From positions 1 to 23,389 of IMG/VR virus record IMGVR_UViG_3300044799_000332: 23,389 nucleotides of DNA. One strand, written 5' to 3'. The notes beneath the pieces were generated by a model that searched no databases, was not told the origin of the DNA, and saw nothing but the letters and a program-made list of their open reading frames with translations. Positions within the stretch are counted from its first letter, which is position 1. Every line of letters begins with the position of its first letter. Position numbers and translations under genes: made by a program. Positions 1,503 through 21,485 of this stretch are shown here, in pieces. This DNA comes from a virus.

Positions 1503-1544
1503 AAAAGCCCCCGGATCCTCGCGAAGAGGATCCGGGGGCTTTTT
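1503..1544. terminator. Bidirectional rho-independent terminator between convergent units
   Basis: Perfect 15-bp arms (1506-1520 and 1526-1540) enclose the loop GCGAA. The stem is GC-rich and flanked by an A-run at 1503-1506 and a T-run at 1540-1544, so it gives a U-tail on both strands. It lies between the stop of the plus-strand gene (1420) and the stop of the minus-strand endolysin gene (1569), exactly where two converging transcripts must end. Confidence 0.95.
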
Positions 1545-1568: not shown

Positions 1569-2036
1569 CTATTCCCAAACGTGCGGCCAGACGAAACAAT
1601 GTCCCACCTCGACGCGGAGGATCCGTGTATTCCACGATCGGCTTCCCGGTCCGCGCCCGCCGTAGCACTCGAACGTTTCCCCGTCGTTGACGAGCCATAC
1701 GTGGCCGGTGTGATCGGTCGCCGGATCGACGAACGCGACGTAGAGTGTGGAATCGTTCTTGCGAGGCGCCGCAGCCGAGTAGGCGACCGCGCGGAGACGT
1801 TCGGCCAGGAACGCGCGCTGCATCCAGGATCCGTCCGGGAGCGCCAGGGACGGCTCGGTCGAATGATAGACGAGCCAGCGGATATACCCCGAACAGTCGA
1901 TCGAGGAGATCGACTGGAGCCGCGTGTCGAGCCGGGCCTTCGCGCCGAGTTTGTAACGGACGCCGCGAAGCTCCATCGCATGCGCCAGCGTCTGGAGAGT
2001 TTCAAGTTTGATGGGAGGGATGCCGGCGTCGATCAT
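1569..2036 (-). CDS. NlpC/P60-type cell-wall peptidase (endolysin)
   Basis: This 155-aa protein is probably the lysis enzyme that cuts peptide bonds in host peptidoglycan. The NlpC/P60 signature is clear. The nucleophile Cys48 sits in the motif IDCSG (46-50) at the start of a helix. The catalytic His112 is in GHVWLV, followed by a strand that runs into FECYGGRGPG. An N-terminal helix (about 10-25) has the usual ALELxGxxY-like form. There is no signal peptide and no separate wall-binding domain, so it needs the holin to reach the wall. ATG 2036 overlaps the holin stop by four bases (ATGA), with GGAG just upstream. It is the last gene of the minus-strand unit. NlpC/P60 enzymes are also known as tail-tip lysins, but the position beside the holin favours an endolysin. 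Confidence 0.88.
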   Translation of the reverse strand: MIDAGIPPIKLETLQTLAHAMELRGVRYKLGAKARLDTRLQSISSIDCSGYIRWLVYHSTEPSLALPDGSWMQRAFLAERLRAVAYSAAAPRKNDSTLYVAFVDPATDHTGHVWLVNDGETFECYGGRGPGSRSWNTRILRVEVGHCFVWPHVWE

Positions 2037-2488
2037 TTCGTCTCCGGATTGACGGGAGGAGCAACTTCGCTATCCGCGAAGAGCGCCCGAAGCCGATCCG
2101 GGATCATGACCCCGGATACGGACAGGTTTTCGGCGATTGACAGGCACTCAGTCAGAATCACGTAGTCGCAGAAGAACACCTTCCAGAGCGTGCCGGATCC
2201 GAGAACGTGATCGGCCAAGTTTCCGAACACGATCGAGGCGATCATCGCTAATTTGCGCTGTAATCCCAGGACCGCCACGCGGGAGGATAGCGATTGCCGT
2301 AATCCGCCTTTGATGACGCCGGTCACGACGTCGAGCGCGAAGGCGCAGAATGCGTAGCCGAGGAGATCGGTCCGTTGTGCGCCGAACGCGAACGTGAAAC
2401 CGGTCGCGACCCCGGCCAATGGCACGCCGAGCTTGTAGTGATGAGCCTCGAGGAAGGCGCTGGCGCCGAGGATTCGGTTTTGAAACAT
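2033..2488 (-). CDS. Holin, phage_holin_4 (TcdE/phi-type) family
   Basis: A 151-aa membrane protein that would form lesions in the inner membrane and release the endolysin. Hydrophobic segments lie at about 20-36, 43-60, 76-92 and 103-116. Family hallmarks are LDVVTGVIKGGL (52-63), the S-rich turn followed by GLQRKL (75-80), and the C-terminal TECLSIAENLSVSG with the proline at 130 (residues 113-130). Together these match the Pfam Holin_4 pattern (D-x-x-T-G, then K-G-x-x-R-K, then E-x-x-S-I-x-E-N). AAAGGAG upstream supports the ATG at 2488. It follows the large fibre gene by 27 bp and overlaps the endolysin start, a standard lysis cassette at the end of the late transcript. Confidence 0.9.
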   Translation of the reverse strand: MFQNRILGASAFLEAHHYKLGVPLAGVATGFTFAFGAQRTDLLGYAFCAFALDVVTGVIKGGLRQSLSSRVAVLGLQRKLAMIASIVFGNLADHVLGSGTLWKVFFCDYVILTECLSIAENLSVSGVMIPDRLRALFADSEVAPPVNPETK

Positions 2489-2515: not shown

Positions 2516-5500
2516 TTATCGTACGCGGACGATATAGCAGAGCGCGTATGACGGCGGCAAGGACGAACCCGATCCGGACGCGGCGGTGATTGAGTGGGAG
2601 TGTGAACCCCCGCTGTCTGTCGTGCCGCCGACGGAGACAAAGTGAATATGAGTGGTATCCGTGACGACATAATCGGTTCCGGCCGCAACACCGGCGCCGC
2701 CGGAGAAGGGAGTGGATGTAGCGAAAGGACCCGCTATATACGTATGCGTGTGGCTCCCGCCGCTATCCGTACTCGGAATCGCGTGAGTATGCGTCGCGCT
2801 TCCCACCGACTGCCCGACCGTGTAGGTCGAACCCGCGCCGATTATGAATTTATCCGTCAGGTTATAGGTGTCATTCGTCCCGTCGCAGAGTTGCCAGTTC
2901 CATTGCATATTTGCGACTGCGCCCGACCAAACCTTGATATCGCCGACGCGGAATCCGGTCCCTGTTTCCCGAAGTCGCCAACCCTCCGTGACGGCGACGA
3001 TCTGAACGCCCTCGTTGAGCGACTTGAGCGCGATCGGCGTATTGTCGGCGAGACCCTGTATCCCATCCGCCGCATTCGGTTGAATGGTGAGGGTATTCGC
3101 CGCGACGGATTTATCGATCTCGTAGACGCGATTGAGGACCGTCGCCGCCGAGGGCAAGGTAACGGTAATATTCCCGCCGGTCGTATCGACGATGAGGATC
3201 GCTTCGTCCGCGATCGTATACGTCGGCGTCGCATAAGTAATCGTGGTGACTTTTACGCCGAATGACCCGCCCGATTCCAGAGTCGAGAGCGGCGCCGCGA
3301 TCATTACGCCGAAATTGCCGCTGGCGAGGAGTGTAGCTTTCGTTGTCGGTTGTGCCGATTGCGAGTTGTCGCTCGCCTTAGTCTGAAAAAGAAGACCGCC
3401 GGAGAAGTTCGTGGCGTTCGTCCATTTGCTCGCGATGATGGCGGCGGGATACCACGCGAAGCTGTTCCCGGTATCGTTGTGTCGGAAAAATAGCCCCGGA
3501 TAATCGTTCGCGTTGTTCCCGGTCGGCGAGTTCTGGAGTACAAGCGTCTTCTGGATGCCCGAGTTGTACGCCTCGGCGGTATTGAGCGTGAGGGGCGATC
3601 CGGCGATCGGCGCCGTCGTGCCGAACCCGCCCTCGCCGGTCGTCGCGATCGTCAACCCCAGGCCCGTCGCCGACTTTGCCGCTGTCAGCGCCGCCGTCTC
3701 GCTCGCGCCCGATCCGTAATGCAGGACTGCACTTCCGTCATTTTGCGTCCCGAACAGCCATCCCGCGTTCGTTGCGTTCGCTTGCAGCCAGATACCGCCG
3801 TATCCATAGGTCGCGTCGGTGTTCTTGATCGCGACGAACGTCCCCGCCGCTTCGCTGCTGGAAATAACGAGCGGAGTTTTATACGAATCGTCTCCGATAA
3901 CCGGCGCCGTCGTGCCGATTCCGACCGGATCGGCGATATAGGCGCCGTAGTTATGGCTCGCCCCCGCGGTCGGCTTCGACACGTAAAGCCCGTAGGCGTC
4001 CGTAACCGTTCCGGCGCCGTTCTCGGTGATGACCGGGATGAACACCCCGGCCGCGCCCGCGAGGGTAACGCCGGTCGCCGGCTGCACGTCCGCCCCCAGC
4101 TTGGCTCCGTAAGCCCATTTGCCGGTCGTCTCGTTGACGAGAGTCGGCATATTCTGGAAGCCGAAAGTATGCTCGGTTGGGGCCGTGACGACCGCGATAT
4201 TCCGCAACCCGTAGCCGTAGTCGGGGCCTGTAAATGGCCCGTTGAGATCCAGGTAGCCGAGGGGCGCCGTTGGTCCGATCCCTACGTTTCCACCGTGATA
4301 GGGATTAAGACGAATCGGATTCGTCCCGCCCGCGTCGATCGCCAGCGCCCCTGCCGCGTTCTTGTGGATATCGGAATATTTATTGACCGCCGATTCCCAG
4401 ACCGCCTCGGCGTTCGGCGACTGTATCCGGATCGAGTCGCCGATCAGTGCCTCGCCTTTCAGTCGCGATTCACCCAGGACGTCGAGGTCGCCGGTCGCGG
4501 CGAGGCTCGTATCGGCCACCGGCGTCGCGTATTTCAAATCGAATGGCGTGCCGACTTCCAGGTCGGTGATTGCCGACCAGAATGAAACGTGAATGTTTCC
4601 CGTCGCCGGCTGAAACGTGAGGAGCTGCAGGATCTCCGATCCCCCGCCCCCGTCGTCCTGGTAGTTGCAGAATAACTGATGGACGAGGTTCCCGCCGTCG
4701 CCGATATCGGTCATGTGCGCCGAATGCGGTCCGTCAATGAAATGGCCGTTGACGACAAGAAATATTTCCGGGTTGAGTTTGACGAACGAATCCCACAACC
4801 CCTGCCCGTCATCCCCCTGCGTGTAGGTGTCGCCGAGCTTGCTTCGCGCCCCGTCCGCGTTGAGGTAGGCGTGGGTGGCGACGATGATCTCTTTGGTCGG
4901 GTTATTATTGACGATCCCCTGCGCCCATACGATATCAGCGGGGAGAATCCACCACCCAAGGCCGATGACCAGATAATTGTGTGTTCCCACCGTAAAAGTA
5001 ACGTAGAAATCGTGATCCGATCCGCCGTTATTGCCGCCGTACCAGCTTTTACCGGCGAAATACGCAGGGCCGAATTCGGCGTCATATTCGGCCCAATCGA
5101 CATAGTTCCAGGAGTCATGGTTGCCGCCGATCGGCAGGATCGGCAATCCGGCGGCCATCGCGACGGAATAGGCAGCAGCGCCGTTTGCGAATGAAGCCGG
5201 AGCATGAACGGGCGTAATGTCGCCGAGGCCTAGGACCGCTTTGATATTGAGCACCGTCTTGTTCGCGACGACCCAATCCATCATATCGTCTAGACGACCG
5301 TCGTCGCATTCGGCGCCGGTGTCGGGCACGGTAACGACCGTGAAGTCGGCTTCCTCCGATTGGCGGAATCCGGTAATCGTCCGCAGTCGTGACGTCGATA
5401 TCGACGCCGCGCCGGTATAGACGAGCGGATTGGAGAGTTTCGTGCCGGTGACAATCCCGGCGCGGATATCGACGGGGCTGTTAATGATCGTCGCGGCGCC

Positions 5501-5563
5501 GGCGTCGAGTGTCGCAATTAAAAAGAGCGCGACCGTCACGGCGCGCTCGGTAAACGTTCTCAT
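2516..5563 (-). CDS. Large tail fibre/receptor-binding protein with metallophosphoesterase domain and collar tip
   Basis: A 1015-aa protein. ATG 5563 is preferred because AGGAGGAG (5575-5568) lies directly upstream; an ATG at 5578 has no ribosome site. Residues 1-25 form a Sec-type signal (basic start, hydrophobic core, cleavage near AGA-A). Residues 75-330 are calcineurin-like: VPDTG (D81), GLGD (D115), GGNHD (N148, H149), THAY (H231) and NGH (H274). Motif I has Gly where His or Gln is usual, and the last motif lacks its second His. A shaft follows, with four copies of a GNVGIGxTAP-like repeat. The C-terminus (872-1015) is a phage collar-type domain (W-x-L-C-D-G-T-N, D-K-F-I-I-G-A-G) with four HxH motifs, ending PPSYALCYIVRVR. 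It lies between the tail hub and the holin, where receptor-binding fibres sit. Confidence 0.85.
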   Translation of the reverse strand: MRTFTERAVTVALFLIATLDAGAATIINSPVDIRAGIVTGTKLSNPLVYTGAASISTSRLRTITGFRQSEEADFTVVTVPDTGAECDDGRLDDMMDWVVANKTVLNIKAVLGLGDITPVHAPASFANGAAAYSVAMAAGLPILPIGGNHDSWNYVDWAEYDAEFGPAYFAGKSWYGGNNGGSDHDFYVTFTVGTHNYLVIGLGWWILPADIVWAQGIVNNNPTKEIIVATHAYLNADGARSKLGDTYTQGDDGQGLWDSFVKLNPEIFLVVNGHFIDGPHSAHMTDIGDGGNLVHQLFCNYQDDGGGGSEILQLLTFQPATGNIHVSFWSAITDLEVGTPFDLKYATPVADTSLAATGDLDVLGESRLKGEALIGDSIRIQSPNAEAVWESAVNKYSDIHKNAAGALAIDAGGTNPIRLNPYHGGNVGIGPTAPLGYLDLNGPFTGPDYGYGLRNIAVVTAPTEHTFGFQNMPTLVNETTGKWAYGAKLGADVQPATGVTLAGAAGVFIPVITENGAGTVTDAYGLYVSKPTAGASHNYGAYIADPVGIGTTAPVIGDDSYKTPLVISSSEAAGTFVAIKNTDATYGYGGIWLQANATNAGWLFGTQNDGSAVLHYGSGASETAALTAAKSATGLGLTIATTGEGGFGTTAPIAGSPLTLNTAEAYNSGIQKTLVLQNSPTGNNANDYPGLFFRHNDTGNSFAWYPAAIIASKWTNATNFSGGLLFQTKASDNSQSAQPTTKATLLASGNFGVMIAAPLSTLESGGSFGVKVTTITYATPTYTIADEAILIVDTTGGNITVTLPSAATVLNRVYEIDKSVAANTLTIQPNAADGIQGLADNTPIALKSLNEGVQIVAVTEGWRLRETGTGFRVGDIKVWSGAVANMQWNWQLCDGTNDTYNLTDKFIIGAGSTYTVGQSVGSATHTHAIPSTDSGGSHTHTYIAGPFATSTPFSGGAGVAAGTDYVVTDTTHIHFVSVGGTTDSGGSHSHSITAASGSGSSLPPSYALCYIVRVR

Positions 5564-5574
5564 TCTTCTCCTCC

Positions 5575-8154
5575 TCATGTTGTGACCTTGTAGCGTACCC
5601 GTATTCGCTCGCCGCCGCCGGTTCCATCGAGGATCGGATGCTCGCCCTCGACGAATGTAATCACCGATCCGGCGAGGTTATAGTGGACCCCGTCGTAAAG
5701 GGGCATTCCCGGAATGCGATCGACGTCGAAGATTTCGCCGGCCGCGGGCGTCTGCTGCACCGTGACCGTCACAGTGCCGTTCTTTCGTCCCAGATCCGGG
5801 TCGGGGATCCCGTCGTTCGCATCCCACGTCCGAAGGAATGCCCCCGGCTCATTAGGACCATACCATTCCTCAACGGAGAGGACCGCGCCGATCGTGCCGC
5901 CTCCCTGCGTGTTTCCCGCCGTCGCCGACAGGTTGGCGCTCATCGCCGATACGCCGCCCCCCCCGGCCTGCTGCGCCCGCAGAAGCAGAAGCGCCGGATC
6001 CGGACGGACGTTCGTCAGATCCACCTCGCACCGGATCGCGCCGCTCAGGGCGAGCAGGTAATGGATCTTCGCCGGAAACTGGTCGTCGATCGAGAGGCCG
6101 GCGCCTGCGATCCGGACCAGGCCTGCGGGCGTCCCCACGTCATCGTCGGCGACGTATTTGAGATGGACGTCGCACGGCTCCAGCACGAGCTGGGCCGCGC
6201 GGAGCGGAATCGCGTAGCGGTTGAAATAGCCGGTGATATACGCGGCGGCGCGCGCGCGCGATGCGAGTTCCGGCGCGTCGATGACGGCCTCGCGAAGTCC
6301 ATACGTCGCGATCGACGCCTTCGCCGCGGACGACAGGCCCGCCGCCAATTCCGCATCGTCGGACCGGAACGAATATTCAATCTGCTCGCCCGGCGCGAAC
6401 TCCGTCCGCTGCTCGATCGTGTACTCGAAAAGGTCTATCCCGTCGAGATCGTACGTCCCATTGCCTCGCAACTCGATGATCGGACGGACCGCGACGGTCG
6501 CCTGAGCGGTCGTGAGGTCGACGTACTGCCGCGTCCAGTCGCCGTCGCTCGGCGTCGCGCCGGCGGCGCCCCAGACCCGGGTGAGGACTCCCGCGGAATC
6601 CTTCCGCTCCCAGCCGCACCGGTAGGAGAGCGCCGCGGTTCCCCGTACGGCGATCGCGATCCGGTATCCGGTGTTCCCGCGGACTCCGATCCAATGCTGC
6701 TCGGTGGGGTAGATCCGCGTCGTGTTCGCGTCGGTCCCGTCGCAGCCGGTCGTCACGGCGCGGATGCTATAGAGGCCGTGGTAAGGGAGGTTGCCGGCGG
6801 CGCCGGCCGCGTTCTCGTGGATCCAGTCGATCTCGACGCCCGCCGTCCCCCGAACTTGGCTCGTCCATCCGTCCTGCGCCGCGTCGTCGGTTTCGTAGAG
6901 CGCGACGTCGTCGATCATCGTCGCGCGCTCGGTGAGGGTCGCGCCGCCGGTCGCGTCGTTATACGCGATCCGGATCCGGCATTTTTTCGTGCCGACCGGG
7001 AGTGTCTTGACGAAATTCGCGGGAATCGTCTCGTAAGCCTGGCTGATTACATCGACAATATACGCGTCGACCGGTGTTCCGAGATCCCCGTCCGCCGCAT
7101 CGAGGCATTGGAGCGTGATCGCGATGGAGCGCGCCAGCGTCGCCGCCTCAGCCGCGTGGGGTACTTCAAGAGTGTATTTCGTCGGCACGGTGAGTGCCGC
7201 GGCGAGGATCACGGTCTGCTGGATATACTCGCCCGGGTTGTCCACCTCGCCGAAATAATCGCCGGTCCGCGCGTATTCGCCGAGCGCCGACCCCGTCTGC
7301 TTCCGGGAGGATCCTCCCGAATAGGTCCAGTGAAGCGCGTCTTCGAACGAGGGCGAGAGCACCAGGTTCCCGGCGCCGCCGTCGCCGTTGATGACGGGCA
7401 GTTCCCACGAGGAATTGTAGACCAGGTTAGGCGCCTTCTCCGGCCCGCCGGTGATCCGCGCGGCGTTGATGACCTGCGCCAGGTCCGCCGGCTCCTCGTA
7501 ATAGTTGACGTCGCGGCCGATTCGGAAGGGGTCCGCGTCGGCGTCCGATACCGCCGCCGGCCGCGGTTTGACGTAGAGGCGGTCGAGCCGCCCGCCCGTC
7601 ATATCCCATCCCCAGATGAGGAGGTCCCCGGCCTGCTCCGCAAGCGATTCGGCTACGGAGAGCGCGTCGGAGGAAAAGGCGTCGAAGCGGTCTATCGAGA
7701 CCGCGGGCGAGAGCGCCTGGATCGCCTGCGCGAACGCCCCGAACCGCTCCGCTCCGGTCAGGTAGTGCGACGCGAGCCAGGCGAACGCCTCGCTGACGTC
7801 GGCGCCGCCCGGCTTGATATAGCGAGCGTTCGTGGCGAGCGTCTTCATTCGAGCCATCAGGCCGGCGCCGGCCAAGGCGAAAGAGGGCGCGCCGTCGCGG
7901 ATCGCCGGTGTGATCTTTTCGATCCACCCGCGAAACGCCGGTTCCTCCGCGAACCACCACTCGATCATTCCATCGACGACGGGCAGCGCCGGGATGAGGG
8001 CGTCCTGGAATTCGGCGAGGAGGGTGAGCGCGAAGTTGCCGTATCCGCCCGAGACCAACGATTCGAAGTCCCAATCAAGAACGTAGGCGTCCGGGAGCGG
8101 CTGACGCGCGCCGGCCGCGTCGTAAAGACGGATCTCGACCGGATCGAGGCTCAT
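5575..8154 (-). CDS. Tail hub (Tal/gp27-like) protein with inserted carbohydrate-binding-like modules
   Basis: An 859-aa protein that most likely forms the tail-tip hub between the distal tail ring and the fibres. Residues 1-240 have the beta-rich hub start with tryptophan and glycine motifs (VLDWDF, WWFAEEPAFRGWIEKI). Residues 590-760 return to a hub-like domain. In between are two jelly-roll modules of the kind found in carbohydrate-binding proteins, at about 262-421 (starting NLVLSPSFED, ending IDDVALYE) and 430-579 (ending LDGIDLFEYT). A Gly-rich hinge (about 765-790) leads to a C-terminal beta domain. AAGGA upstream supports ATG 8154. The stop TGA overlaps the ATG at 5578. The modules suggest binding to glycans on the host surface. 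Confidence 0.78.
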   Translation of the reverse strand: MSLDPVEIRLYDAAGARQPLPDAYVLDWDFESLVSGGYGNFALTLLAEFQDALIPALPVVDGMIEWWFAEEPAFRGWIEKITPAIRDGAPSFALAGAGLMARMKTLATNARYIKPGGADVSEAFAWLASHYLTGAERFGAFAQAIQALSPAVSIDRFDAFSSDALSVAESLAEQAGDLLIWGWDMTGGRLDRLYVKPRPAAVSDADADPFRIGRDVNYYEEPADLAQVINAARITGGPEKAPNLVYNSSWELPVINGDGGAGNLVLSPSFEDALHWTYSGGSSRKQTGSALGEYARTGDYFGEVDNPGEYIQQTVILAAALTVPTKYTLEVPHAAEAATLARSIAITLQCLDAADGDLGTPVDAYIVDVISQAYETIPANFVKTLPVGTKKCRIRIAYNDATGGATLTERATMIDDVALYETDDAAQDGWTSQVRGTAGVEIDWIHENAAGAAGNLPYHGLYSIRAVTTGCDGTDANTTRIYPTEQHWIGVRGNTGYRIAIAVRGTAALSYRCGWERKDSAGVLTRVWGAAGATPSDGDWTRQYVDLTTAQATVAVRPIIELRGNGTYDLDGIDLFEYTIEQRTEFAPGEQIEYSFRSDDAELAAGLSSAAKASIATYGLREAVIDAPELASRARAAAYITGYFNRYAIPLRAAQLVLEPCDVHLKYVADDDVGTPAGLVRIAGAGLSIDDQFPAKIHYLLALSGAIRCEVDLTNVRPDPALLLLRAQQAGGGGVSAMSANLSATAGNTQGGGTIGAVLSVEEWYGPNEPGAFLRTWDANDGIPDPDLGRKNGTVTVTVQQTPAAGEIFDVDRIPGMPLYDGVHYNLAGSVITFVEGEHPILDGTGGGERIRVRYKVTT

Positions 8155-8167
8155 GGCGGCGTCCTTC

Positions 8168-8938
8168 TCAAAGCCACCGCGCCCGGAAGCTCGTCGCGAT
8201 GCTCGTCAGAGTTGCTCCCGAGCCGCCGATCGCGAGGGTCAGCGTCAGCGTGTTCAATCCCGGCGCGAGCGCGAAAAACGAACCGAGAAAATAACTCATC
8301 TTGCTCGCCGCGTTAAGGGTCACGGTCTGTGCCCAGCAGTCGACGATAAGGATGTCCCCGGCCGTCACGGCGCCGTCGAGGTCGAACCATTCGCCCGTGT
8401 CCGTCGTGAGCGTCAGATCGAGATACCCGGTCCCGGCGATCGCGATCGTGAAGATCGGCAGCGCGTCCTCCGTCCCGGCGTTCGTGATCGGCCGCGTTTG
8501 TCCCGTCGTCGGCGTCTCCCATAAATCCGGCGTCGGCGTCGACGCGATCCAATAGGGATCCGGCGCCTCATATCGCGCAGTGCAGAGCTGCGTCGTCAAT
8601 CCCCGGTCCGGCCCCCAGGTGACCGCGCGGCATTCAGCGAGGATGAATCGCTCGTTATATTGATAGAGCGCCCGCAGGCCGGGTCGATGGGCGCGCAGGA
8701 AGTCGTTCTTCGCCTCCTCGAACAAGGCGCGGGTCGTCAGCGCCGCGGCGTCCGCGATCGCGCCCTCGATGACGATCTGGCGCGGCCCTAGCCATCCCGC
8801 CCGCGCTCGCGACCGGTCGGACCGCGGCACGGCGGCGACCGCGCCCCGTACGTCGAGCGGCGCCGAGAGGTCGGTGATGAGGACGTGATTCGACCCGAAG
8901 ACAAATTCTCCGAAAGCCGGCGCGTACGTCAGTGCCAT
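8168..8938 (-). CDS. Distal tail protein (Dit-like)
   Basis: A 256-aa protein that should form the ring joining the tail tube to the hub. It has the siphovirus tail-protein pattern: an N-terminal beta domain with FGSNHVLITDLS, the conserved RQIVIEGAI strand (53-61), and the helix TTRALFEEAKNDFLRAHRPG. A C-terminal galectin-like beta domain ends in PGLNTLTLTL and the strand SIATSFRARWL. It lies between the tape measure and the hub, the fixed place of Dit in siphovirus tail clusters. The ribosome site before ATG 8938 is poor; the tape-measure stop is only seven bases upstream, so translation is probably coupled. Confidence 0.82.
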   Translation of the reverse strand: MALTYAPAFGEFVFGSNHVLITDLSAPLDVRGAVAAVPRSDRSRARAGWLGPRQIVIEGAIADAAALTTRALFEEAKNDFLRAHRPGLRALYQYNERFILAECRAVTWGPDRGLTTQLCTARYEAPDPYWIASTPTPDLWETPTTGQTRPITNAGTEDALPIFTIAIAGTGYLDLTLTTDTGEWFDLDGAVTAGDILIVDCWAQTVTLNAASKMSYFLGSFFALAPGLNTLTLTLAIGGSGATLTSIATSFRARWL

Positions 8939-8945
8939 CTATTAC

Positions 8946-11528
8946 TCATTTCGTCGCCGTCCGGAGCGAACGCCGGAACATCCGCGCCAGGTCGTCGTTC
9001 GCCCGGCTCATATCCACGTCGGTCCGGATATCGCCGTGGATGTGCTGCACGATGACCACCGCCGGCCCCCGGCCCCCGATCGACTGCGCGTTCGCCGCGT
9101 CGTAGGCGATCTGTCCGGTGTCCGGCACGCCCGATCCGGATCCTCCCCCTCCTCCCGATCCGCCGCCGCCCGTCGGGATGTAGATGTTCCCTCCGGGAAC
9201 GCTCACGCCGACCGCCTCCGCGATCCCGAGAACCGCCTCCGAAACGCCTTCCGTCGCGATCCCGAGCACCGCCCGCCCGATCTTCGCGAGGATCCCGCCG
9301 CCCTTCTTACCGCCGCCGCCGGCCCGCCTGAGCGCGTCGGTCACCTGCTCGACGATCAAATTCGAGAGCGCCTTCGCGATGATCATCGCGACGTCGCCGA
9401 ACAGGTTCTTGACGGCGCCCTTGAAATTCTCCTGGCCCGAGAGGATCGATTCGAAAAACGTTTCCCCGATCCCCTTGAAACTCTCCTTCGACCAGCCCGC
9501 CAGGTCCTCGAAATACCGCTGCCACTTCGACCGCACCGGCCCGGCCTCGCCCGGCTCGATCCCGAGCGCCTCGCGGAGCTTCCGCGCGGCGGATTGGTCC
9601 ACCAGCACGGCGTCGACGCCGGCCTGAAGGTTCTCGACCGCGGCGTCGAGGATCTCCCGCTGCCCCCGAATTCCTTCCGGCAGCATGCCGACGACCAGCT
9701 CCCGGGAACGGTCCGCGATCGCCTTCATCCCCGCCAAAAGGTTATCTGTCCAGTCCGCCTGCGCCTTCCGTCCCGCCGCGGCGTAGTTCGCCGCGTCCCG
9801 CAGAGCGTCCGCGAACTTCCGCCCCGCCGTCGCCGCTTTCGCCTGCTCCGCCTCCCAACCCTTGCCAAACTCCGCGAAGATCCTCGCCAGGCGCGTCTGC
9901 CCCTCCTTGAGCTGGGCGGTTTGGGCGTTCGTCACCTGGTTCGCCACGTCCGCGATTTCCGGCTCGACCAAGAAGCCTTTCAACCGCGTCTGGATCCTCC
10001 CCAGGCCCTGGGCGCGCATGGTCGTCAGTTGACGGTCGATCTCCTCCTGTGGCATGCCCTTACGGGTCATCGCCAATCGCTCTCTATCGAGCCATTGATC
10101 CATATATCTCGTATTATAGTCGAGGGTCTCGCGACTGCTGCGCTGTATCTCCTCAAGTTTTTTGTGGATCGCGTCGAGCATATCCTTCCACGCGGCGGCG
10201 AAGTCGACGAGCTCGCTCTTCAGGGTCCGCGTCTTCGCGATCGCCGCGAGTGTGACGTTCGACCCGGCGACGGGCGGCGCTTCGGGCAGGCCGCCGTGGC
10301 TCGCGAGGAGCCGGTCCTGCACCGTCACGGGCGGAAGATAAAAGAGGCCATGCACGATCCTCTTCGCGCGTTCCGGCGCGCTTTCGGGGATAATCGGCAA
10401 AGGCTTGACGCCAGGTAAGACCTTATACCCGGACGAGTCGAAAAGCGGCGATGAGCTTCCAACTTTTTTAATCGACTGAATGGCGCCGTAAATCGATTCG
10501 ATGATCTCCTTCACCTGGAGCGCGATCGACAAGACTGACGTCGCGAATTCCTCCAGGTTCTTTTTCGAGAACATCTCCTTAATGTTCTTCGTAAAATCGT
10601 CGAATGCCTTCGACGCCGTAAACTGGTCGATAGCGCGGATCATCGCGTCGATCGAGGTTTTCATCGACTCCGAAAGCGCGTCGCCGAGCTTCAGCGCGGA
10701 TCGGGTGAGCGCGTCTTGAAGGTTCGTCCACTTCCCGCCGACCGTGTTCATCAGCCGATCCATCGCGCCCGCGGATCGCCGCGACATCAACTCGAAAACG
10801 GCGACCTGGAAAGCGGAATAGTCGGTGACCTGCCCCTTCGCATTGATAAGGTTGCGCCCCATCGAGGCGACCATCTGTTTTGTGACGCCGAACTCCCGGA
10901 GTCTTTCGAACTCGCCGTGCATCGCGTCCGCGATCGCCTCGACGGTGTCCTGAAACGACCGGTTCGCGCTCGCCGCGAAGTCGCCGATCGCCCGCAGGCG
11001 CTCCGCAGTCGGATTCAATCCGTAGAACGCCATCCGGACGTAGGCGTCGGTAACCTCCCCGATCTCGTAGGGCGTCCGGCGCGCGAATTCGGAGAGGGCC
11101 GCCATCGCCTGATTAACCTTCGACTGGCTGTGGAAGACGGTCATCAGGCGGGCTTCATAACCCTCGAAGGCGACGGTCGTCGTGACGACCTTCCTCACGA
11201 TCGCCTCGACCGGGTTGAGTAATCCCGTGAAGGCGCCCTTGAGCAGATACGCCGTCCCGCCCATTCCCCCCATCGCCAGCGCCAGGTCGCGCCAGCCACC
11301 CGAGGCCCGCTTCGCCTCGTCGCCGGCCGATTTCGTCGAGTCGAAGGCGCTCCGCATGGCCTGCGCCGTCTTCTTCGATTCCTGCGAAACCTCCCGCAGG
11401 TCGCGAACGGCGTCGCGGATCTCGGCCTCGACCTTCACCTGCAATTCGGCAACCGTCATCGGCATGGTGGCGTTCTCGTCATCAAAGAATTCTTCGGGAG
11501 CCTCGATCGGGGGCCGTCCTGTAGCCAC
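8946..11528 (-). CDS. Tail tape measure protein
   Basis: The 860-aa protein sets tail length and leaves with the DNA. At roughly 1.5 angstrom per residue it predicts a tail near 130 nm. The N-terminal part is a long coiled coil (about 25-80), followed by a hydrophobic stretch (81-105) and the tape-measure core (FEGYEARLMTVF, SEFARRTPYEIGEVTDAYVR, about 130-280). The middle is helical. The C-terminus (about 675-860) has FKGIGETFFESILSGQENFK, a hydrophobic segment, a Gly/Ser linker and a last domain with VVIVQHIHGDIRTDV. The start is uncertain: GTG 11528 has no clear ribosome site, and ATG 11465 or 11459 (MPMTVAELQ) would also give a typical tape-measure start. It lies downstream of the G/T chaperones, as is usual. 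Confidence 0.9.
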   Translation of the reverse strand: MATGRPPIEAPEEFFDDENATMPMTVAELQVKVEAEIRDAVRDLREVSQESKKTAQAMRSAFDSTKSAGDEAKRASGGWRDLALAMGGMGGTAYLLKGAFTGLLNPVEAIVRKVVTTTVAFEGYEARLMTVFHSQSKVNQAMAALSEFARRTPYEIGEVTDAYVRMAFYGLNPTAERLRAIGDFAASANRSFQDTVEAIADAMHGEFERLREFGVTKQMVASMGRNLINAKGQVTDYSAFQVAVFELMSRRSAGAMDRLMNTVGGKWTNLQDALTRSALKLGDALSESMKTSIDAMIRAIDQFTASKAFDDFTKNIKEMFSKKNLEEFATSVLSIALQVKEIIESIYGAIQSIKKVGSSSPLFDSSGYKVLPGVKPLPIIPESAPERAKRIVHGLFYLPPVTVQDRLLASHGGLPEAPPVAGSNVTLAAIAKTRTLKSELVDFAAAWKDMLDAIHKKLEEIQRSSRETLDYNTRYMDQWLDRERLAMTRKGMPQEEIDRQLTTMRAQGLGRIQTRLKGFLVEPEIADVANQVTNAQTAQLKEGQTRLARIFAEFGKGWEAEQAKAATAGRKFADALRDAANYAAAGRKAQADWTDNLLAGMKAIADRSRELVVGMLPEGIRGQREILDAAVENLQAGVDAVLVDQSAARKLREALGIEPGEAGPVRSKWQRYFEDLAGWSKESFKGIGETFFESILSGQENFKGAVKNLFGDVAMIIAKALSNLIVEQVTDALRRAGGGGKKGGGILAKIGRAVLGIATEGVSEAVLGIAEAVGVSVPGGNIYIPTGGGGSGGGGGSGSGVPDTGQIAYDAANAQSIGGRGPAVVIVQHIHGDIRTDVDMSRANDDLARMFRRSLRTATK

Positions 11529-11594
11529 CCCACGATGGAGGATATTAAGGCTCGACGGGACGGACCGTTACGCGGCTCCCGAAGCCGTCAAATC

Positions 11595-11664
11595 CGAAGA
11601 GCGAAGGACGAAGAGCGAAGAGCGCAACCCCCACGGGCCTTCGCTCTTCGTCCTTCGCTCTTCG
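11595..11664. repeat. Perfect 26-bp inverted repeat between chaperone T and tape measure
   Basis: Arms 11595-11620 and 11639-11664 are perfect reverse complements around an 18-nt loop. The arms are made of variants of a 7-bp unit (CTTCGCT/CTTCGTC), and the tandem series runs on to about 11678. On the late transcript it forms a very strong hairpin just after the T stop (11676) and before the tape measure. There is no U-run, so it is not a standard terminator. Bases 11609-11650 occur again, inverted, at 12226-12267. Confidence 0.85.
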
Positions 11665-11675
11665 CTCTTCGTTCT

Positions 11676-11894
11676 TCATCCCGACCTCGGATGCTTCGCC
11701 CGGTAGTTTTCCGCTTCCGTCTCCGCGTTCTGGCTCACGAGCGCCCAGCTTTCCCAGAACGAGGGACGCTCCTCCAGATCCCACGGCGCGACCCCCAGGT
11801 AGCGCGCGGCGCGGATCAGCACGTATTCCGCCGGAATAACGTCCTCCGGGCCGCTCATCCCCGTCAGGAGAAGGAAGAGGAGGCGGTCGGTTCC
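11676..11894 (-). CDS. Tail assembly chaperone T extension, read by -1 frameshift from G
   Basis: This frame carries the T part of a G-T tail chaperone pair. It has no independent ribosome site, but it is open from the slippery site at 11900-11894 to the stop at 11676. Shifting back one base after the AAG codon adds 72 residues to 101 residues of G, for a fusion of about 173 aa spanning 11676-12196. The extension begins GTDRLLFLLLTGMSGPEDV, then has the T-like core YLGVAPWDLEERPSFWESW and an Asn/Glu/Ala-rich end. In lambda-like phages a few percent of G ribosomes make the fusion, which recruits the tape measure to the tube protein. An ATG at 11858 could start a free 60-aa form, but with no good ribosome site. 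Confidence 0.8.
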   Translation of the reverse strand, partial: GTDRLLFLLLTGMSGPEDVIPAEYVLIRAARYLGVAPWDLEERPSFWESWALVSQNAETEAENYRAKHPRSG

Positions 11895-12196
11895 TTTTTT
11901 GGGCGCTCATCCTCCGTTGTGGCGCGGATGATCTCGGCGAGGGCCTGGCTCGGCACCTGGCGCAACGTTTCGAGGGTGATCGGAAGCGGAGCCCCGTCGT
12001 CGTCCAGCAGGTCCCATCCGGCGACGATCTCGCAGAACGTCGCGAGCATCGTTTCGGCGCCGGTACTGTTCGCGATCCTCGCCTCCGACTCCGGTGTGAT
12101 CGCGTAGGGCCGGTACCGCACCCGGACCGAGTCATCGCCGAACGCGACGGCGATCTCCTTCTCCCGCGCCTTCAGCTCGTGCAGTTTTAACGCCAT
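11864..12196 (-). CDS. Tail assembly chaperone G
   Basis: A 110-aa cytoplasmic chaperone expected to coat the tape measure during tail assembly. The ATG at 12196 has GAGG/AGGAG just upstream (about 12199-12207). The same frame stays open far upstream inside the tube gene, but that part is only a shadow. The protein starts with a beta strand pair (KEIAVAFGDDSVRVRYRPYAI). A helical part with AETMLATFCEIVAGWDLLDDDGAPLPIT follows, the usual chaperone G form. It ends with a low-complexity Ser tail after the frameshift site. It sits between the tail tube gene and the tape measure, the conserved place for this pair, and is bracketed by the 42-bp inverted repeat. Confidence 0.82.
   Translation of the reverse strand: MALKLHELKAREKEIAVAFGDDSVRVRYRPYAITPESEARIANSTGAETMLATFCEIVAGWDLLDDDGAPLPITLETLRQVPSQALAEIIRATTEDERPKKEPTASSSFS
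11894..11915 (-). promoter_or_regulatory. Programmed -1 frameshift site with SD-like stimulator
   Basis: In the G frame the codons are CCA AAA AAG. This places two overlapping slippery heptamers in register: C-CCA-AAA (11903-11897) and A-AAA-AAG (11900-11894). GGAGG lies at 11915-11911, with exactly 10 bases between it and A-AAA-AAG, the same layout as the stimulator of E. coli dnaX frameshifting. The frame entered is the T frame. I did not find a convincing downstream pseudoknot; a CCTCC/GGAGG pairing downstream is possible. Confidence 0.85.
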
Positions 12197-12218
12197 ATCC
12201 TCGCTCCTCAGCCTTTTC

Positions 12219-12267
12219 CGAAGAGCGAAGAGCGAAGGCCCGTGGGGGTTGCGCTCTTCGCTCTTCG
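12219..12267. repeat. Perfect 16-bp inverted repeat between tail tube and chaperone genes
   Basis: Arms 12219-12234 and 12252-12267 pair perfectly around a 17-nt loop. The hairpin lies seven bases after the tube protein stop (12274) and upstream of the chaperone G ribosome site. Bases 12226-12267 are identical to 11609-11650 in reverse orientation, so the G/T genes are bracketed by one 42-bp repeat. Confidence 0.85.
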
Positions 12268-12273
12268 CTCCCT

Positions 12274-13815
12274 CTACAGTGTCGCGATCGAGCACATTAC
12301 GTAGATCGCGATCGCGCCGCCGAACGTCGAATCGTAGATCGGCTCGAGCTCGTACGTCCGGACGCGCGCCCCCTGGTCGTCGCCGACGCCGGGGTTGCGG
12401 ACCTTGAACGGCATGTCGATCCGGATCCGGTGGACGTATCCGGTCTCGATCAGTTCCCCGACCGCCTCGAACCGAACATAGAGAAGAGTCCGGAGCCGGA
12501 GCGCGAGTATATAGGCGTCCGCATCCGTATTGGCTTCCACCGTGATCGACGCGGTGATCTCCATCCCCGGGTCGGGCTCGATCACGGCGGTGAAGGACGG
12601 CTCGACGTCGTCGAGGGTGAAGAGGGGCGCCTGCATGTTCGCGACGTTGATCCGGGCCTCCACCAGGCGCTCCAGCTGCGCCATGCCCAGCATCGTCGTC
12701 CCCGCCCACACGGAAACTTCGGTCGGGCTGACCGGCTTCATCGCGACCTCGGCCGTCCCGCCGTCCATAGTCTCGCCCACGACAAGCTGCCGCCCGAACA
12801 TCCGGCCGGTGATCCCCGCCGCGGTCCGGGTGAACGTGATCCCGAGATCCGAGACGACGCCGAAATCGAACCGCTCGGCGTAGACGCCGTTGCCGGTGTT
12901 GACTGAGTACGTCTTGATCGTGTCGCCTGCGTCGTGAGTTGGGATGACGGTCCAGAGTCGCGCAAGCGTCGCCGCCGTCGTGGTGACGGTAAGGGTTGCT
13001 TTCGAGGCGACAGTAAGCGAATGGTTTGTCCCGATGAGGTTCGCGCCGTCGCCGGTCAGGATGTGGTCCTTGTATCCCGTGGCGAATGTGACGGTATGGA
13101 TCTGCGCGCCGCCGGTGACGACCGTGACGTTTCCCTGGCCGACCGAGGAGAGCGCCTCCAGCGCGGTCTGGAGAGCCGCCGACGTGATGTCGTGATCGAG
13201 TCCCGACGTCGTCTGCCCGTCGAACGTCATAGTGAACGTTCCGTCGGTCCCGACGATCGTTACCGTCCATGCGCCGGTGATGAGCGTGCCGGCGGTCCCG
13301 GTCAGAGCCAATGGCGTATATCGGAGCGCCTTTTCAAATGAAATCGTGTACGGGCCGCCCGCGCTTCCCGAGACGCCTACGTTGCCCGCGCCGATCGTCG
13401 TCAGCGCCTCCAGGAGCGACTTCAGGTCCGCCGCGGCGACGTTGTACGCGATCGCGGCCGCCGTCTGCCCGTTGAACGTCAGTGGAAACGAGCCACCCGT
13501 CGGCGTGTTGAGGGTGACGACGAACGTACCGTTCCGCGCCGGCGTGGAGGGAGAGACGGACTTCATCCCTGCCGAGAGGAGGTAAGGCAAATCGTTATAA
13601 CAGAGATTCCCGGCAATCTCGGCGGTCGTGTGCTCTTTCTCGGCGGTCTGCTCCCGCGTGAACCGGTTTCCCTGCGCCCGCACGCCGGTCCGCGGCACGA
13701 CGGGCGTCGGCGTCAGCTTGAAACCGAGCAGCCTTTTCGTCGTCGTGACGGCCGTGCCCGGCGTATCCTCCACGCCGATCTGGACGCCCTCGAATACGCT
13801 CGCGCGTTCTGACAT
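12274..13815 (-). CDS. Major tail tube protein with two inserted repeat domains
   Basis: This 513-aa protein is the likely tail tube subunit. The N-terminus (1-90: VQIGVEDTPGTA, a Thr/Pro-rich strand pair, DLPYLLSAG) and the C-terminus (about 285-513, with GDTIKTYSVNTGNGVYAERF, ARINVANMQAPLFTL and ITVEANTDADAYILALRLR) fit a siphovirus tube protein. Residues 97-275 hold two tandem copies of a module seen in many phage virion proteins: GTFVVTLNTP...NGQTAAAIAYN...LLEALTTIGAGNVGV, then GTFTMTFDGQTTSGLDHDI...ALEALSSVGQGNVTV. These would stick out from the tube surface. GGGAG upstream supports ATG 13815. The next gene downstream is chaperone G. It is longer than the usual 150-300 residues because of the insertion. 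Confidence 0.82.
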   Translation of the reverse strand: MSERASVFEGVQIGVEDTPGTAVTTTKRLLGFKLTPTPVVPRTGVRAQGNRFTREQTAEKEHTTAEIAGNLCYNDLPYLLSAGMKSVSPSTPARNGTFVVTLNTPTGGSFPLTFNGQTAAAIAYNVAAADLKSLLEALTTIGAGNVGVSGSAGGPYTISFEKALRYTPLALTGTAGTLITGAWTVTIVGTDGTFTMTFDGQTTSGLDHDITSAALQTALEALSSVGQGNVTVVTGGAQIHTVTFATGYKDHILTGDGANLIGTNHSLTVASKATLTVTTTAATLARLWTVIPTHDAGDTIKTYSVNTGNGVYAERFDFGVVSDLGITFTRTAAGITGRMFGRQLVVGETMDGGTAEVAMKPVSPTEVSVWAGTTMLGMAQLERLVEARINVANMQAPLFTLDDVEPSFTAVIEPDPGMEITASITVEANTDADAYILALRLRTLLYVRFEAVGELIETGYVHRIRIDMPFKVRNPGVGDDQGARVRTYELEPIYDSTFGGAIAIYVMCSIATL

Positions 13816-17020: not shown

Positions 17021-17710
17021 TTATACCGTCCCGAGCTTCATCGTCACGCCGGCCGCCGTATAGGTTCCCGCCCCGCGCGAGCGCAAGGCCATGAACAGGC
17101 TCGTCGCGTTCGGTTTCATCGGCAGCCCGATGTTTTTGATGACGGCGATCCGGTTGCCGCCGAGGTCGTTATAGTCGGCCGCGGCGACCGGGATATATCC
17201 CAGGCAATTAGCCATATCCGCGTCCGAGACGTTCCAGGCCGCGTTCACCGCCGGCAGCGTCGCCGTTCGGTCAAAGAAGAAAACCTCGAACGCGATCCCC
17301 TGGTCGTCTTCATCGTTGACCACCAGCGAGTTGAGGATGCACGTTTCCCCCGCCGCCCGCACGAAATTCGCGATTTCCACGATGGCGCACATCGAATCGC
17401 CGTCCGCATAGATGCTCGTATCCAACGTCGGGATCACCGAAAACACATTCGGTCCGTTGGTGCTTTTATCCAGCAAAACGACCAGCCGGCCGTTCAGATC
17501 GAGCCAGCCATCGACGCGATCGGCCGCCGACACGGCGGTTGGAATAGTCGTGGTCGCAGAAGCCTTGCCTCCGAGCTTGATCGGACTGCCGGAATCGGCG
17601 GCGTCATGCGCCGGGCCGCCCTGAACGGGCAGCGGATTCGCGGCGGACGTCTCGACGTAACCGGCCGCCGCCTTCAGCCAATTAAGGACGTTCAAGACCG
17701 TTCTCCTCAC
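17021..17710 (-). CDS. Virion-associated accessory protein, function unknown
   Basis: A 229-aa beta-rich protein, probably a virion protein. Its ADSGSPIKLGGKASATTTIPT motif (38-58) and the later AADRVDGWLDLNGRLVVLL recall a type of structural protein I remember from several environmental phages. It also has ILNSLVVNDEDDQGIAFEVFF. There is no signal peptide. The start is uncertain: GTG 17710 overlaps the fibre stop (GTGA) but has no ribosome site, while TTG 17695 has AGGAG seven bases upstream. It is followed by the long inverted repeat. Its neighbours are fibre and capsid genes, so it is probably displayed on the head or neck. Confidence 0.6.
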   Translation of the reverse strand: MRRTVLNVLNWLKAAAGYVETSAANPLPVQGGPAHDAADSGSPIKLGGKASATTTIPTAVSAADRVDGWLDLNGRLVVLLDKSTNGPNVFSVIPTLDTSIYADGDSMCAIVEIANFVRAAGETCILNSLVVNDEDDQGIAFEVFFFDRTATLPAVNAAWNVSDADMANCLGYIPVAAADYNDLGGNRIAVIKNIGLPMKPNATSLFMALRSRGAGTYTAAGVTMKLGTV

Positions 17711-18900
17711 TTCACGACGATAAAATTGAGTTTGTAAGTAAGCGCCGTCGTCGCAGACGGCGTTCCGTTATAGACGAACGTCGCCGTCGTCGCCGCGCTC
17801 GTCGTGAGCCACTGCTGCACCGGTCCCGTCGAGGTGCTCGACCAACTGGCGACGACGTACGGCGCCGCCCCGAACGTCCCGTCCTTGAACGTCAGTACGA
17901 TCGTCGGGCTGGCCGCCGGGGTGTCCGACGCGCTCGTGGTGATCGTGATAATCCCCCCGAGGTCCGTGCCCGTGATCGCCTTCGTCGCGTTCGAGCCCCA
18001 TCCGGCTCCGCCGCCGCCCAGCGCGATATCGCCGCTCGCCAGCGCGGTTCCGCCGCCGAGGAGCCTCTTTCCCACCAGGTTGCCCGCCGTCGCCGTCACG
18101 TTGCCCGTCGTCGCAATCACGCCGGTGCCGCCCGTCACAGTCGTCGTCGCCGCGACGGAGGCGCCCGCGGTTACCGTCGTTCCGGCCGCGACGCTCCCCA
18201 ATGTGGCCGCGATATTGCCGGCCGAGGCGGTGACGTTGCCCAGGGTCGCGACGATATTTCCCGCGTCCGCCGTCACGCCGCCCGCCGTGGCGTGAAGCCC
18301 GGTGCCCGAGGTGATCGTCGTGCCGGCGGAGACGCTTCCCGCGGTCGCGGCGATATTGCCCCCCGTCGCGGTGATGTTGCCGCCGACGGCCGTAAAGTCG
18401 ACCGTGCCGATCAACGTCATGGCCGTCGTCGAGAGAGTCGCGCGAGCCGTCCCGCCCGCCGTGAGGCCGAGCGTATCCGCCGCGCTCCAGTAGATTCCTG
18501 TATTCGTATCGGTCGTGTTGGCGATTGACGGCGCCGCCGCCGTGCCGTCCGCGAAGGTCGTCACTCCCGGAGAAAAACTCGTCGCCGTGACTACGCCGGT
18601 GTAGGTGACCTTGAATTTCGAGGTTCCGTTCACCATCAGGTTAATAAAGTCACCCGCGAATCCCGTCGCCGGGTTCGCCCCTATGTACGTCCCGTACGCG
18701 CTGCCCCCGGTGAGGGCCACCCGGCCCATCCGGAGGAGCGCCTTCGTGGCGCCGGCCTGCGGGGTCATGTAGAGCTGGACCGGCCCGCGCGCGATCAATT
18801 CGTCCCGGATCTCCGTCGCCGCGGCGGACGGACCGAGAGGCCACGCCAGGCCGATCATCAACGCTAACGCGACACCGGCCACCGATTTTCTAACGATCAT
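17707..18900 (-). CDS. Secreted-type repeat fibre in the head gene region
   Basis: A 397-aa fibre-like protein. ATG 18900 is chosen because GGAGG lies eight bases upstream; an in-frame start at 18942 lies inside an upstream hairpin. Residues 1-28 form a clear Sec signal (basic MIVRKS, hydrophobic VAGVALALMIGLAW, then SAAA). Residues 125-165 (NTTDTNTGIYWSAADTLGLT) match the knob-to-shaft region of many phage fibres. Residues 173-275 are a 7-residue-period beta repeat of GNITAT/GNIAAT form, a likely triple-beta shaft. The C-terminus (305-397) is a beta domain with ITITTSASDTP and WSSTSTGPVQQW. Its place next to capsid genes, far from the tail tip, suggests a head or neck fibre; a surface-exported protein is also possible. 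Confidence 0.75.
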   Translation of the reverse strand: MIVRKSVAGVALALMIGLAWPLGPSAAATEIRDELIARGPVQLYMTPQAGATKALLRMGRVALTGGSAYGTYIGANPATGFAGDFINLMVNGTSKFKVTYTGVVTATSFSPGVTTFADGTAAAPSIANTTDTNTGIYWSAADTLGLTAGGTARATLSTTAMTLIGTVDFTAVGGNITATGGNIAATAGSVSAGTTITSGTGLHATAGGVTADAGNIVATLGNVTASAGNIAATLGSVAAGTTVTAGASVAATTTVTGGTGVIATTGNVTATAGNLVGKRLLGGGTALASGDIALGGGGAGWGSNATKAITGTDLGGIITITTSASDTPAASPTIVLTFKDGTFGAAPYVVASWSSTSTGPVQQWLTTSAATTATFVYNGTPSATTALTYKLNFIVVK

Positions 18901-18916
18901 GATCTGATCCTCCAGA

Positions 18917-18949
18917 GCATAGGGTGTTCCCAACGGACACACCCTATGC
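18917..18949. other. Hairpin in the leader of the repeat fibre gene
   Basis: GCATAGGGTGT (18917-18927) and ACACCCTATGC (18939-18949) are perfect 11-bp arms with an 11-nt loop. In the late RNA it sits just upstream of the fibre ribosome site (GGAGG near 18911). Next to it, TATTCC-CGC-GGAATA and two CCGCGG palindromes lie at 18956-18976. No U-run follows, so it may act in translation control or RNA processing. Confidence 0.6.
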
Positions 18950-18980
18950 CCCGATTATTCCCGCGGAATACCGCGGACCC

Positions 18981-19124
18981 TGTAGACGCGAGGCGCGACT
19001 TACCTGTAGACGCGAGGCGCGACTTACCTGTAGACGCGAGGCGCGACTTACCTGTAGACGCGAGGCGCGACTTACCTGTAGACGCGAGGCGCGACTTACC
19101 TGTAGACGCGAGGCGCGACTTACC
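18981..19124. repeat. Six perfect tandem copies of a 24-bp repeat
   Basis: The unit TGTAGACGCGAGGCGCGACT plus TACC is present six times without a single mismatch (18981, 19005, 19029, 19053, 19077, 19101). The array ends one base before the stop of the 265-aa gene. Each unit contains a short palindrome (GCGAGGCGCG-like), so the RNA could fold into a row of small hairpins. Perfect identity points to recent expansion or ongoing slippage. Confidence 0.95.
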
Positions 19125-20492: not shown

Positions 20493-21485
20493 TTACAGAG
20501 CGGTGATGCCGGCGGCCAACAATAAGCTGCCGTGACAGAATTCCGGACCGTGGTCGAGCCCGAGATGGCCGTAGATCTGCGTCGCGTCCGAGGATCCGAC
20601 CCGGGCGAGCGGCTCCTCGAACAGGACGCCCTTGCCGGGGACCGGGAGACCGACGATCCCGACGACGCGCAGGTTGAAGATGTCGAGTGTATCCGCCGGC
20701 ATGTCGGGCTCCAGCACCAGGTTAAGGTCGCCCATCCGCGTGCGGATCACCCGGATCTGGAGGCCTGCGATGGTGCGTTCGAGCGGAATCCCCGTCAGTC
20801 CCTCGTACGCCGCGGCCGCGTTGTTGAAGATGATCGCATCGCAGAACGCGGTCCACGAATCATCGACCGAATAGCCGTTCGACGCGATAATCGTCCTCAT
20901 CAACTCCTCGACGTAGCTCCGCATGGTCGTCGTGTCGGGAGCGGCGGCGCCGGAGTGATCGACGACGTTCGTCGAGATCGCGGTATGGATCCCCCGCGTG
21001 CGCAGAGCCACCGTCGACGGATTGGCCGGCGAGGCGTAGGCGCCGCGCAGGAACGAATAGTTGGCGTCCTGCGCGATCCCCTCGAGCGCCCACATGATCT
21101 GCGTCGATTCGTCGCGCGGGTTGATGACCGACCCCTGCGCCGCGGCCTGCGGGAGCGGCACGACCCCGGTGACCGCGTTCTCCGCGGTCGCCAGGTAACT
21201 GAGGTCGACCTTTTTATGGAAGATCTGGATGACGTTCTCCGTTTGAGTCAGGATGCGGTGCTCCGCCGCGGGCGCGACGTCGCCTTCCAGGACCGCCGGC
21301 TGAGAGGGCGCGGCGAGATCGAAATAGACGCCGACGGGGAACGTCCGGGACGAGGACAGGATGAGTCCTCCCTGGAGTCCCCCGAGAAGCCTGAGAAGTT
21401 GATTGGGTCGTCGAGAGGTTTGAAATAGCTCACCCAGATAGCTGACGGCCCCGGTGGCGGTGACCTGTCCGGCTGCCATAGTCAT
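20493..21485 (-). CDS. Major capsid protein (HK97 fold)
   Basis: A 330-aa protein matching HK97-type capsid subunits of the SU10/DUF5309-like kind. The N-arm has GELFQTSRRPNQLLRLLGGL; an extended strand region (HRILTQTENVIQIFHKKVDLSYLATAEN) is typical of the E-loop and first strands. The spine helix follows (about 127-150: STQIMWALEGIAQDANYSFLRG). Later comes GIHTAISTNVVDHSG, and the P-domain helix MRSYVEELMRTIIASNGYS. The C-terminus has DLNLVLEPDMPADTLDIFNL. No protease domain is fused. ATG 21485 or the third codon ATG 21479 may be used; AAGGA spacing slightly favours 21479. It follows the scaffold gene, as is normal. Confidence 0.88.
   Translation of the reverse strand: MTMAAGQVTATGAVSYLGELFQTSRRPNQLLRLLGGLQGGLILSSSRTFPVGVYFDLAAPSQPAVLEGDVAPAAEHRILTQTENVIQIFHKKVDLSYLATAENAVTGVVPLPQAAAQGSVINPRDESTQIMWALEGIAQDANYSFLRGAYASPANPSTVALRTRGIHTAISTNVVDHSGAAAPDTTTMRSYVEELMRTIIASNGYSVDDSWTAFCDAIIFNNAAAAYEGLTGIPLERTIAGLQIRVIRTRMGDLNLVLEPDMPADTLDIFNLRVVGIVGLPVPGKGVLFEEPLARVGSSDATQIYGHLGLDHGPEFCHGSLLLAAGITAL

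Follow-up and report, generated by a model that had tools for sequence, protein, structure and literature searches.

A tail fibre-like gene of a siphovirus-like phage joins a predicted signal peptide to a divergent metallophosphoesterase domain

A single gene of an uncultivated virus of bacteria was found to encode a predicted Sec-type signal peptide, a calcineurin-like metallophosphoesterase (MPP) domain, a repeat shaft, and a collar-type tip in one polypeptide. It occupies positions 2516 to 5563 of the window, by which we mean the whole stretch of 23,389 bases that was analyzed, and on balance we read it as a host-recognition fibre gene in the late block of a siphovirus-like phage, between the tail-tip gene and the holin gene. 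In the searchable literature, covered mostly by titles and abstracts and with subscription journals sparsely represented, we found no earlier description of a tail fibre bearing a signal peptide or an MPP, or of an MPP fold in a signal-bearing fibre. Synthesis and mounting of tailed-phage fibres are assumed to take place in the cytoplasm, and a fibre with a signal peptide makes that assumption testable. The features are collected in Table 1; residue numbers of the fibre protein follow the 1,020-aa numbering of the ORF from 2516 to 5578.

Table 1. Features of the window on which the analysis rests
Feature	Position	Strand	Basis or remark
Source record	1-23,389		IMG/VR IMGVR_UViG_3300044799_000332
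MuF-like protein	22321-23277	-	gene order, family searches
Major capsid protein (MCP)	20493-21485	-	by position
Second signal-bearing fibre-like gene	17707-18900	-	predicted signal MIVRKSVAGVALALMIGLAWPLGPSAAA, cleavage before T; own Shine-Dalgarno sequence
Tape measure protein (TMP)	8946-11528	-	family searches
Dit	8168-8938	-	family searches
Tail-tip protein, 859 aa	5575-8154	-	by position; upstream of fibre gene
Shine-Dalgarno sequence of fibre gene	5568-5575	-	read directly
Fibre gene from likely start	2516-5563	-	mechanical ORF 2516-5578, 1,020 codons
Sec-type signal peptide	5492-5563	-	predicted; MRTFTERAVTVALFLIATLDAGAA, cleavage before T
Linker, ~45 residues	5357-5491	-	pLDDT ~30-35, no confident structure in monomer model
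Calcineurin-like MPP domain, residues ~75-355	4514-5356	-	homology, model, Foldseek
Motif 1, D86-T87-G88	5315-5323	-	family DTQ, or DTH in L578
D120 of GD motif	5219-5221	-	alignment
N153-H154-D155 of GNHD motif	5114-5122	-	alignment
H236, conserved metal-site His	4871-4873	-	alignment
H279 of GH motif	4742-4744	-	alignment
Fibre shaft, four VGIGTTAP-like repeats	2954-4513	-	sequence
C-terminal tip, collar type (WSG..W.LCDGTN..NL.DKFIIGAGS ... LPPSYALCYI)	2519-2953	-	homology
HxH pair 1, residues 930-932	2783-2791	-
HxH pair 2, residues 943-945	2744-2752	-
HxH pair 3, residues 977-979	2642-2650	-
HxH pair 4, residues 993-995	2594-2602	-
Holin (PF05105)	2033-2488	-	Pfam; directly downstream of fibre gene
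Probable endolysin, NlpC/P60-like	1569-2036	-	read by eye
Strong terminator-like hairpin	1503-1543	-	closes late block, after endolysin

Open reading frames and family searches identified the minus strand of the window as the structural region of a siphovirus-like genome. Connector genes are present, the tail-tip, Dit, TMP, MCP, and MuF genes follow one another in contiguous order, and the fibre gene adjoins the tail-tip gene, for which the family searches returned only a weak PHROG match. The probable endolysin matched no curated family. Besides the hairpin that closes the block, five terminator-like matches were found between positions 1400 and 8400, equal to the shuffle expectation. Scanning for promoters gave one match, with 1.4 expected, which falls inside the fibre gene, and an Rfam search found nothing. 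L009 proved to be the same phage (99.97% over 6,488 bases) and supplies the portal and terminase reading frames. Apart from it, IMG/VR yielded no close relatives of the capsid, and a host search via the portal gave no relatives in approximately 1,170 genomes, sampled from the three groups to which L153, L155, and L127 belong.

The TGA of the tail-tip gene (5577-5575) overlaps ATG 5578, at which the mechanical ORF begins. Just past this stop, 4 to 6 nt ahead of ATG 5563, lies the Shine-Dalgarno sequence AGGAGGAG (5575-5568). Because it stands between the upstream stop and ATG 5563, the latter is the most likely start, in agreement with the extent assigned to the gene when it was read from sequence alone. 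From signal through tip, GC3 of the fibre gene ranges from 0.68 to 0.76, compared to 0.83 to 0.86 in four other late genes, and the value for the whole gene lies 0.08 to 0.18 below theirs. Low GC3 over the full length fits acquisition of the fibre gene, probably as a single unit. A search of IMG/VR revealed no close relatives of the whole gene or of its MPP domain.

The presence of a calcineurin-type phosphoesterase had been proposed from sequence, and both homology and structure prediction upheld it. Searched with tblastn, the domain matched exported cellular MPPs (E value of 3e-19), including those of haloarchaea, Streptomyces, Variovorax, and others, and the PDT, GD, GNHD, H, and GH motifs are common to these proteins in the alignment. 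An AlphaFold2 model of 343 residues, built from 59 sequences, reached a pTM of 0.80, with core pLDDT mostly above 90 and 211 of the 343 residues at 90 or higher. Foldseek placed purple acid phosphatases (6e-10), Lmo2642, Rv0805, and GpdQ at the top of its PDB matches. Compared to the exported MPPs of the PF00149 superfamily (PDTQ...GNHD branch; Actinomycetota, Acidobacteriota, haloarchaea, and others), the window domain has the same fold and conserved residues at 19 to 33% identity, and it differs in being fused to a fibre shaft and tip and in carrying Gly instead of Gln in motif 1. Some of these cellular relatives have Sec-like and many actinobacterial ones Tat-like N-termini, as judged by eye.

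Across 56 cellular relatives, 22 positions are conserved at a level of 95% or more, and the window domain keeps 18 of these, including D86, D120, N153, H154, D155, H236, and H279. Judged from the alignment, the loss that matters among the four changed positions is that of Gln88 to Gly; the wider superfamily has His there. All 56 cellular relatives in the alignment have Gln at this position, and five phage relatives have either Gln or His; A3 was mostly fetched by a pattern requiring PDTQY and GNHD, so that conservation there holds by construction, and independent evidence for motif 1 comes from A1 (tblastn, 7/7 DTQ) and from the phage copies, whose third residue was left free (4 Q, 1 H). A genome scan with A2 returned no relative. 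Since motif 1 reads D-T-G instead of the D-x-H of the superfamily or the D-T-Q of this branch, the domain is, by its sequence, a divergent relative of the superfamily and was not filed as an active enzyme. Neither Pfam, PHROGs, nor NCBIfam called an MPP in the fibre protein, and PF00149 gave no hit, whereas six relatives, five from phages and one cellular, exceeded the Pfam cut-off for Metallophos.

These observations bear on the possibility, to which we assign somewhat less than an even chance, that the domain is a pseudo-enzyme that serves binding or structure only, which would be compatible with the other readings given below. Gly88 and the long branch on which the domain falls in the MPP tree would fit a loss of activity, as would the silence of Pfam. 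The 18 retained family positions weigh on the other side, and the other phage copies keep a similar 17 to 21 of the 22. Phosphoesterase activity on surface polymers is thus considered possible, and such activity has a precedent, since tail phosphoesterases acting on wall teichoic acid are known in phages, phi29 gp12 and others (PMC6116005). The same hydrolysis of a phosphoester by a tail protein would be shared by the window fibre, for which it is proposed only. The fold differs, phi29 gp12 being a beta-helical protein and not calcineurin-like.

The part of the polypeptide that follows the MPP domain is of virion-fibre type. The repeat shaft noticed in the sequence-only reading was recovered as four VGIGTTAP-like repeats, at residues 429, 553, 652, and 757. 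The tip, comprising the last ~145 residues, matched a PHROG of tail fibres (3.5e-7), annotated phage tail fibres, and PDB entry 6ov6; environmental fibres matched it with phmmer E values down to 1e-21. It is homologous to the collar-type tips of Burkholderia phages, cyanophages, Flavobacterium phages, and marine phages (PDB 6ov6 C24), which share its HxH pairs and its PPxYALxYI-like end, and the gene stands within the tail module of the late block. The four HxH pairs that had been singled out are indeed present, but the special character attributed to them was not sustained: HxH pairs occur in all seven annotated relatives (2 to 15 pairs each) and in 118 of 123 environmental tips, and we rejected them as a mark of anything unusual. 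We infer the place of the fibre in the virion from the position of its gene and from this tip.

What sets the fibre apart from its collar-type relatives is its N-terminus. On a hydrophobicity heuristic, which is not a trained predictor and, when applied strictly, fails to recognize one of four textbook controls, the N-terminus displays the n-, h-, and c-regions of a signal peptide and scores 2.80, level with OmpA (2.66) and PhoA (2.83). Its hydrophobic core is the strongest among 22 putative genes of the window, with the frame 17707-18942 a close second, and the only other signal-like N-terminus among the 22 is that of 17707-18900 (2.74). Start sites chosen wrongly were rejected as the source of these signals, given that ATG 5563 and ATG 18900 are each preceded by a strong Shine-Dalgarno sequence. 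By comparison, none of 108 environmental fibre tips with a complete 5' end reached the score of the fibre; the best of them scored 2.24, and this at distant alternative starts only. Neither the seven annotated tip relatives nor, in a stricter scan, 125 fibre-like ORFs in viral loci displayed a signal-like N-terminus; the samples compared are biased towards marine phages. Thus, the reading of the N-terminus as signal peptide-like and the expectation that virion fibres rarely carry export signals were both confirmed, and the signal peptide is an odd feature of this fibre. In itself, the predicted signal peptide would argue for export.

The second signal-bearing gene of the window lies close to the capsid gene and is flanked by two genes of structural type. 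Its product matches proteins of a Roseobacter phage and of cyanophages over short stretches and contains no MPP domain, and the GC3 of the gene is normal (0.856).

Further viral MPPs of this family were found by pattern scans of viral contigs, where most matches were due to chance, an MPP being encoded at few loci out of hundreds. Phage regions could be assigned to five of these, G001 to G005, from gene order read by eye and a few PHROG matches. In G002, a LamG-MPP fusion adjoins tail genes and a beta-helix-like protein, and the domain joined to the MPP has a match to a virion structural protein of phages (phrog_10356, 8.7e-18). G004 encodes a stand-alone MPP with 33% identity to that of the window. 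The MPP of G005 (L037) adjoins a LamG-like protein and capsid-type genes, and that of G003 (L577) adjoins terminase- and portal-like frames. The MPPs of G002, G004, and G005 lie in tail or structural regions and have no signal peptide; because of these surroundings and the fusion in G002, they are probably used at virions. In the MPP tree, whose long branches leave placements unsure, the phage copies are not united, with four label changes, at least three of which are forced by well-supported branches.

G001 (IMGVR_UViG_3300017613_001601, L578) is a contig from an unrelated phage. It carries three consecutive signal-bearing genes followed by an MPP gene (8775-12532, minus strand), all downstream of a 2,036-aa frame, and the last of the three overlaps the MPP gene. 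Signal-bearing structural-type genes and an MPP are therefore side by side, as in the window fibre, but in separate genes, and the MPP itself is signal-less, with motifs that read DTH and GHNH. The second signal-bearing gene belongs to phrog_8198, some cyanophage members of which are annotated as tail fibres; three translated cyanophage homologues had no signal. The pairing of signal and phosphoesterase is thus seen in two unrelated phages. That phage structural regions have captured exported phosphoesterases more than once also points to a group of candidate enzymes for surface modification that go unnoticed or unassigned in standard libraries, as Pfam misses the window domain and PHROGs gives a phosphoesterase call for just one of the five other phage copies.

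Taken as a whole, the gene somewhat more probably than otherwise encodes a host-recognition fibre of the late block that has taken up an exported MPP. The product would be a tail fibre of the virion, probably trimeric, whose tip would bind the host cell surface. Once docked, the tail-proximal MPP would hydrolyze, or at least bind, phosphate esters or diesters in a surface glycopolymer. We are less sure that the signal peptide works, in which case part or all of the product might cross Sec and reach the envelope before lysis. A virion-associated fibre is favored because of the tip, the location of the gene, and the occurrence of MPPs without signals in structural regions of other phages; that no strong terminator is met until after the endolysin also speaks for the fibre. 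Gly88 and the long branch of the domain count against this reading. Also against it, a strong signal should divert the chain from the cytoplasm, where tailed phages assemble.

The signal leads to an alternative that we consider possible but rather doubtful, in which the product is an exported phage protein comparable to lambda Lom and not a virion fibre. Secreted through Sec during infection, it would be tethered to the envelope by the fibre tip. There the MPP would alter or scavenge phosphate esters, and its action may leave receptors on the cell and its debris masked or destroyed. The convincing signal peptide with a Shine-Dalgarno sequence of its own speaks for such a protein, as do the Sec- or Tat-like N-termini seen by eye on examples of cellular relatives and the three signal-bearing genes in a row ahead of the MPP in G001. 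Lambda Lom provides the precedent, being a signal-bearing outer membrane protein whose gene lies between the tail-spike and tail-fibre genes (PMC12309495). Like Lom, the window product is signal-bearing and encoded inside the tail-fibre region. Lom is a beta-barrel membrane protein and has no known enzyme domain or collar tip, whereas sequence matches of the window protein indicate a fibre tip instead. This virion-type tip and shaft, the location in a late block with no separate promoter for the gene, and the absence of signals from the MPPs of G002, G004, and G005 all count against a Lom-like protein.

That the product is a virion fibre whose hydrophobic N-terminus is an uncleaved tail anchor or a remnant of the enzyme gene that was captured seems unlikely: a signal could have travelled with the domain from exported relatives, and the uniformly low GC3 suggests that the gene was probably acquired as one unit, but the second signal-bearing gene of the window has neither an MPP nor low GC3, and the phrog_8198 protein of G001 has a signal that its three checked cyanophage homologues do not; repeated gain of a signal speaks for function.

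A broader proposal, which we put forward as quite unlikely, is that some tailed phages export host-recognition fibres and a phosphoesterase via Sec during infection, and that the fibres fold outside the cytoplasm and either become part of virions upon lysis or act on the envelope beforehand. If true, the window phage, with two signal-bearing fibre genes, and G001, with three and an MPP, would be two independent cases of Sec-exported fibres.

Several additional observations were made in the course of this analysis. One 823-aa phage protein (L580, 10375-12846, minus strand) combines a LamG-like domain, a metallophosphoesterase, and a leucine-rich-looking C-terminus. MT835827 and three further "Bacteriophage sp." matches to the MPP queries are unannotated faecal contigs of 6.9 to 17 kb. 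Read by eye, the GenBank "Bacteriophage sp." entry MT835827.1 (L001) resembles a bacterial chromosome, with DNA polymerase III subunit-, transporter-, and LPXTG-like frames, and for this reason none of the four was counted as phage evidence. In the window, a 24-bp unit, CCTGTAGACGCGAGGCGCGACTTA, is present in six perfect tandem copies at positions 18979 to 19124, just upstream of the second signal-bearing gene, and its copy number is the same in L009, the overlap with which aligns without gaps.
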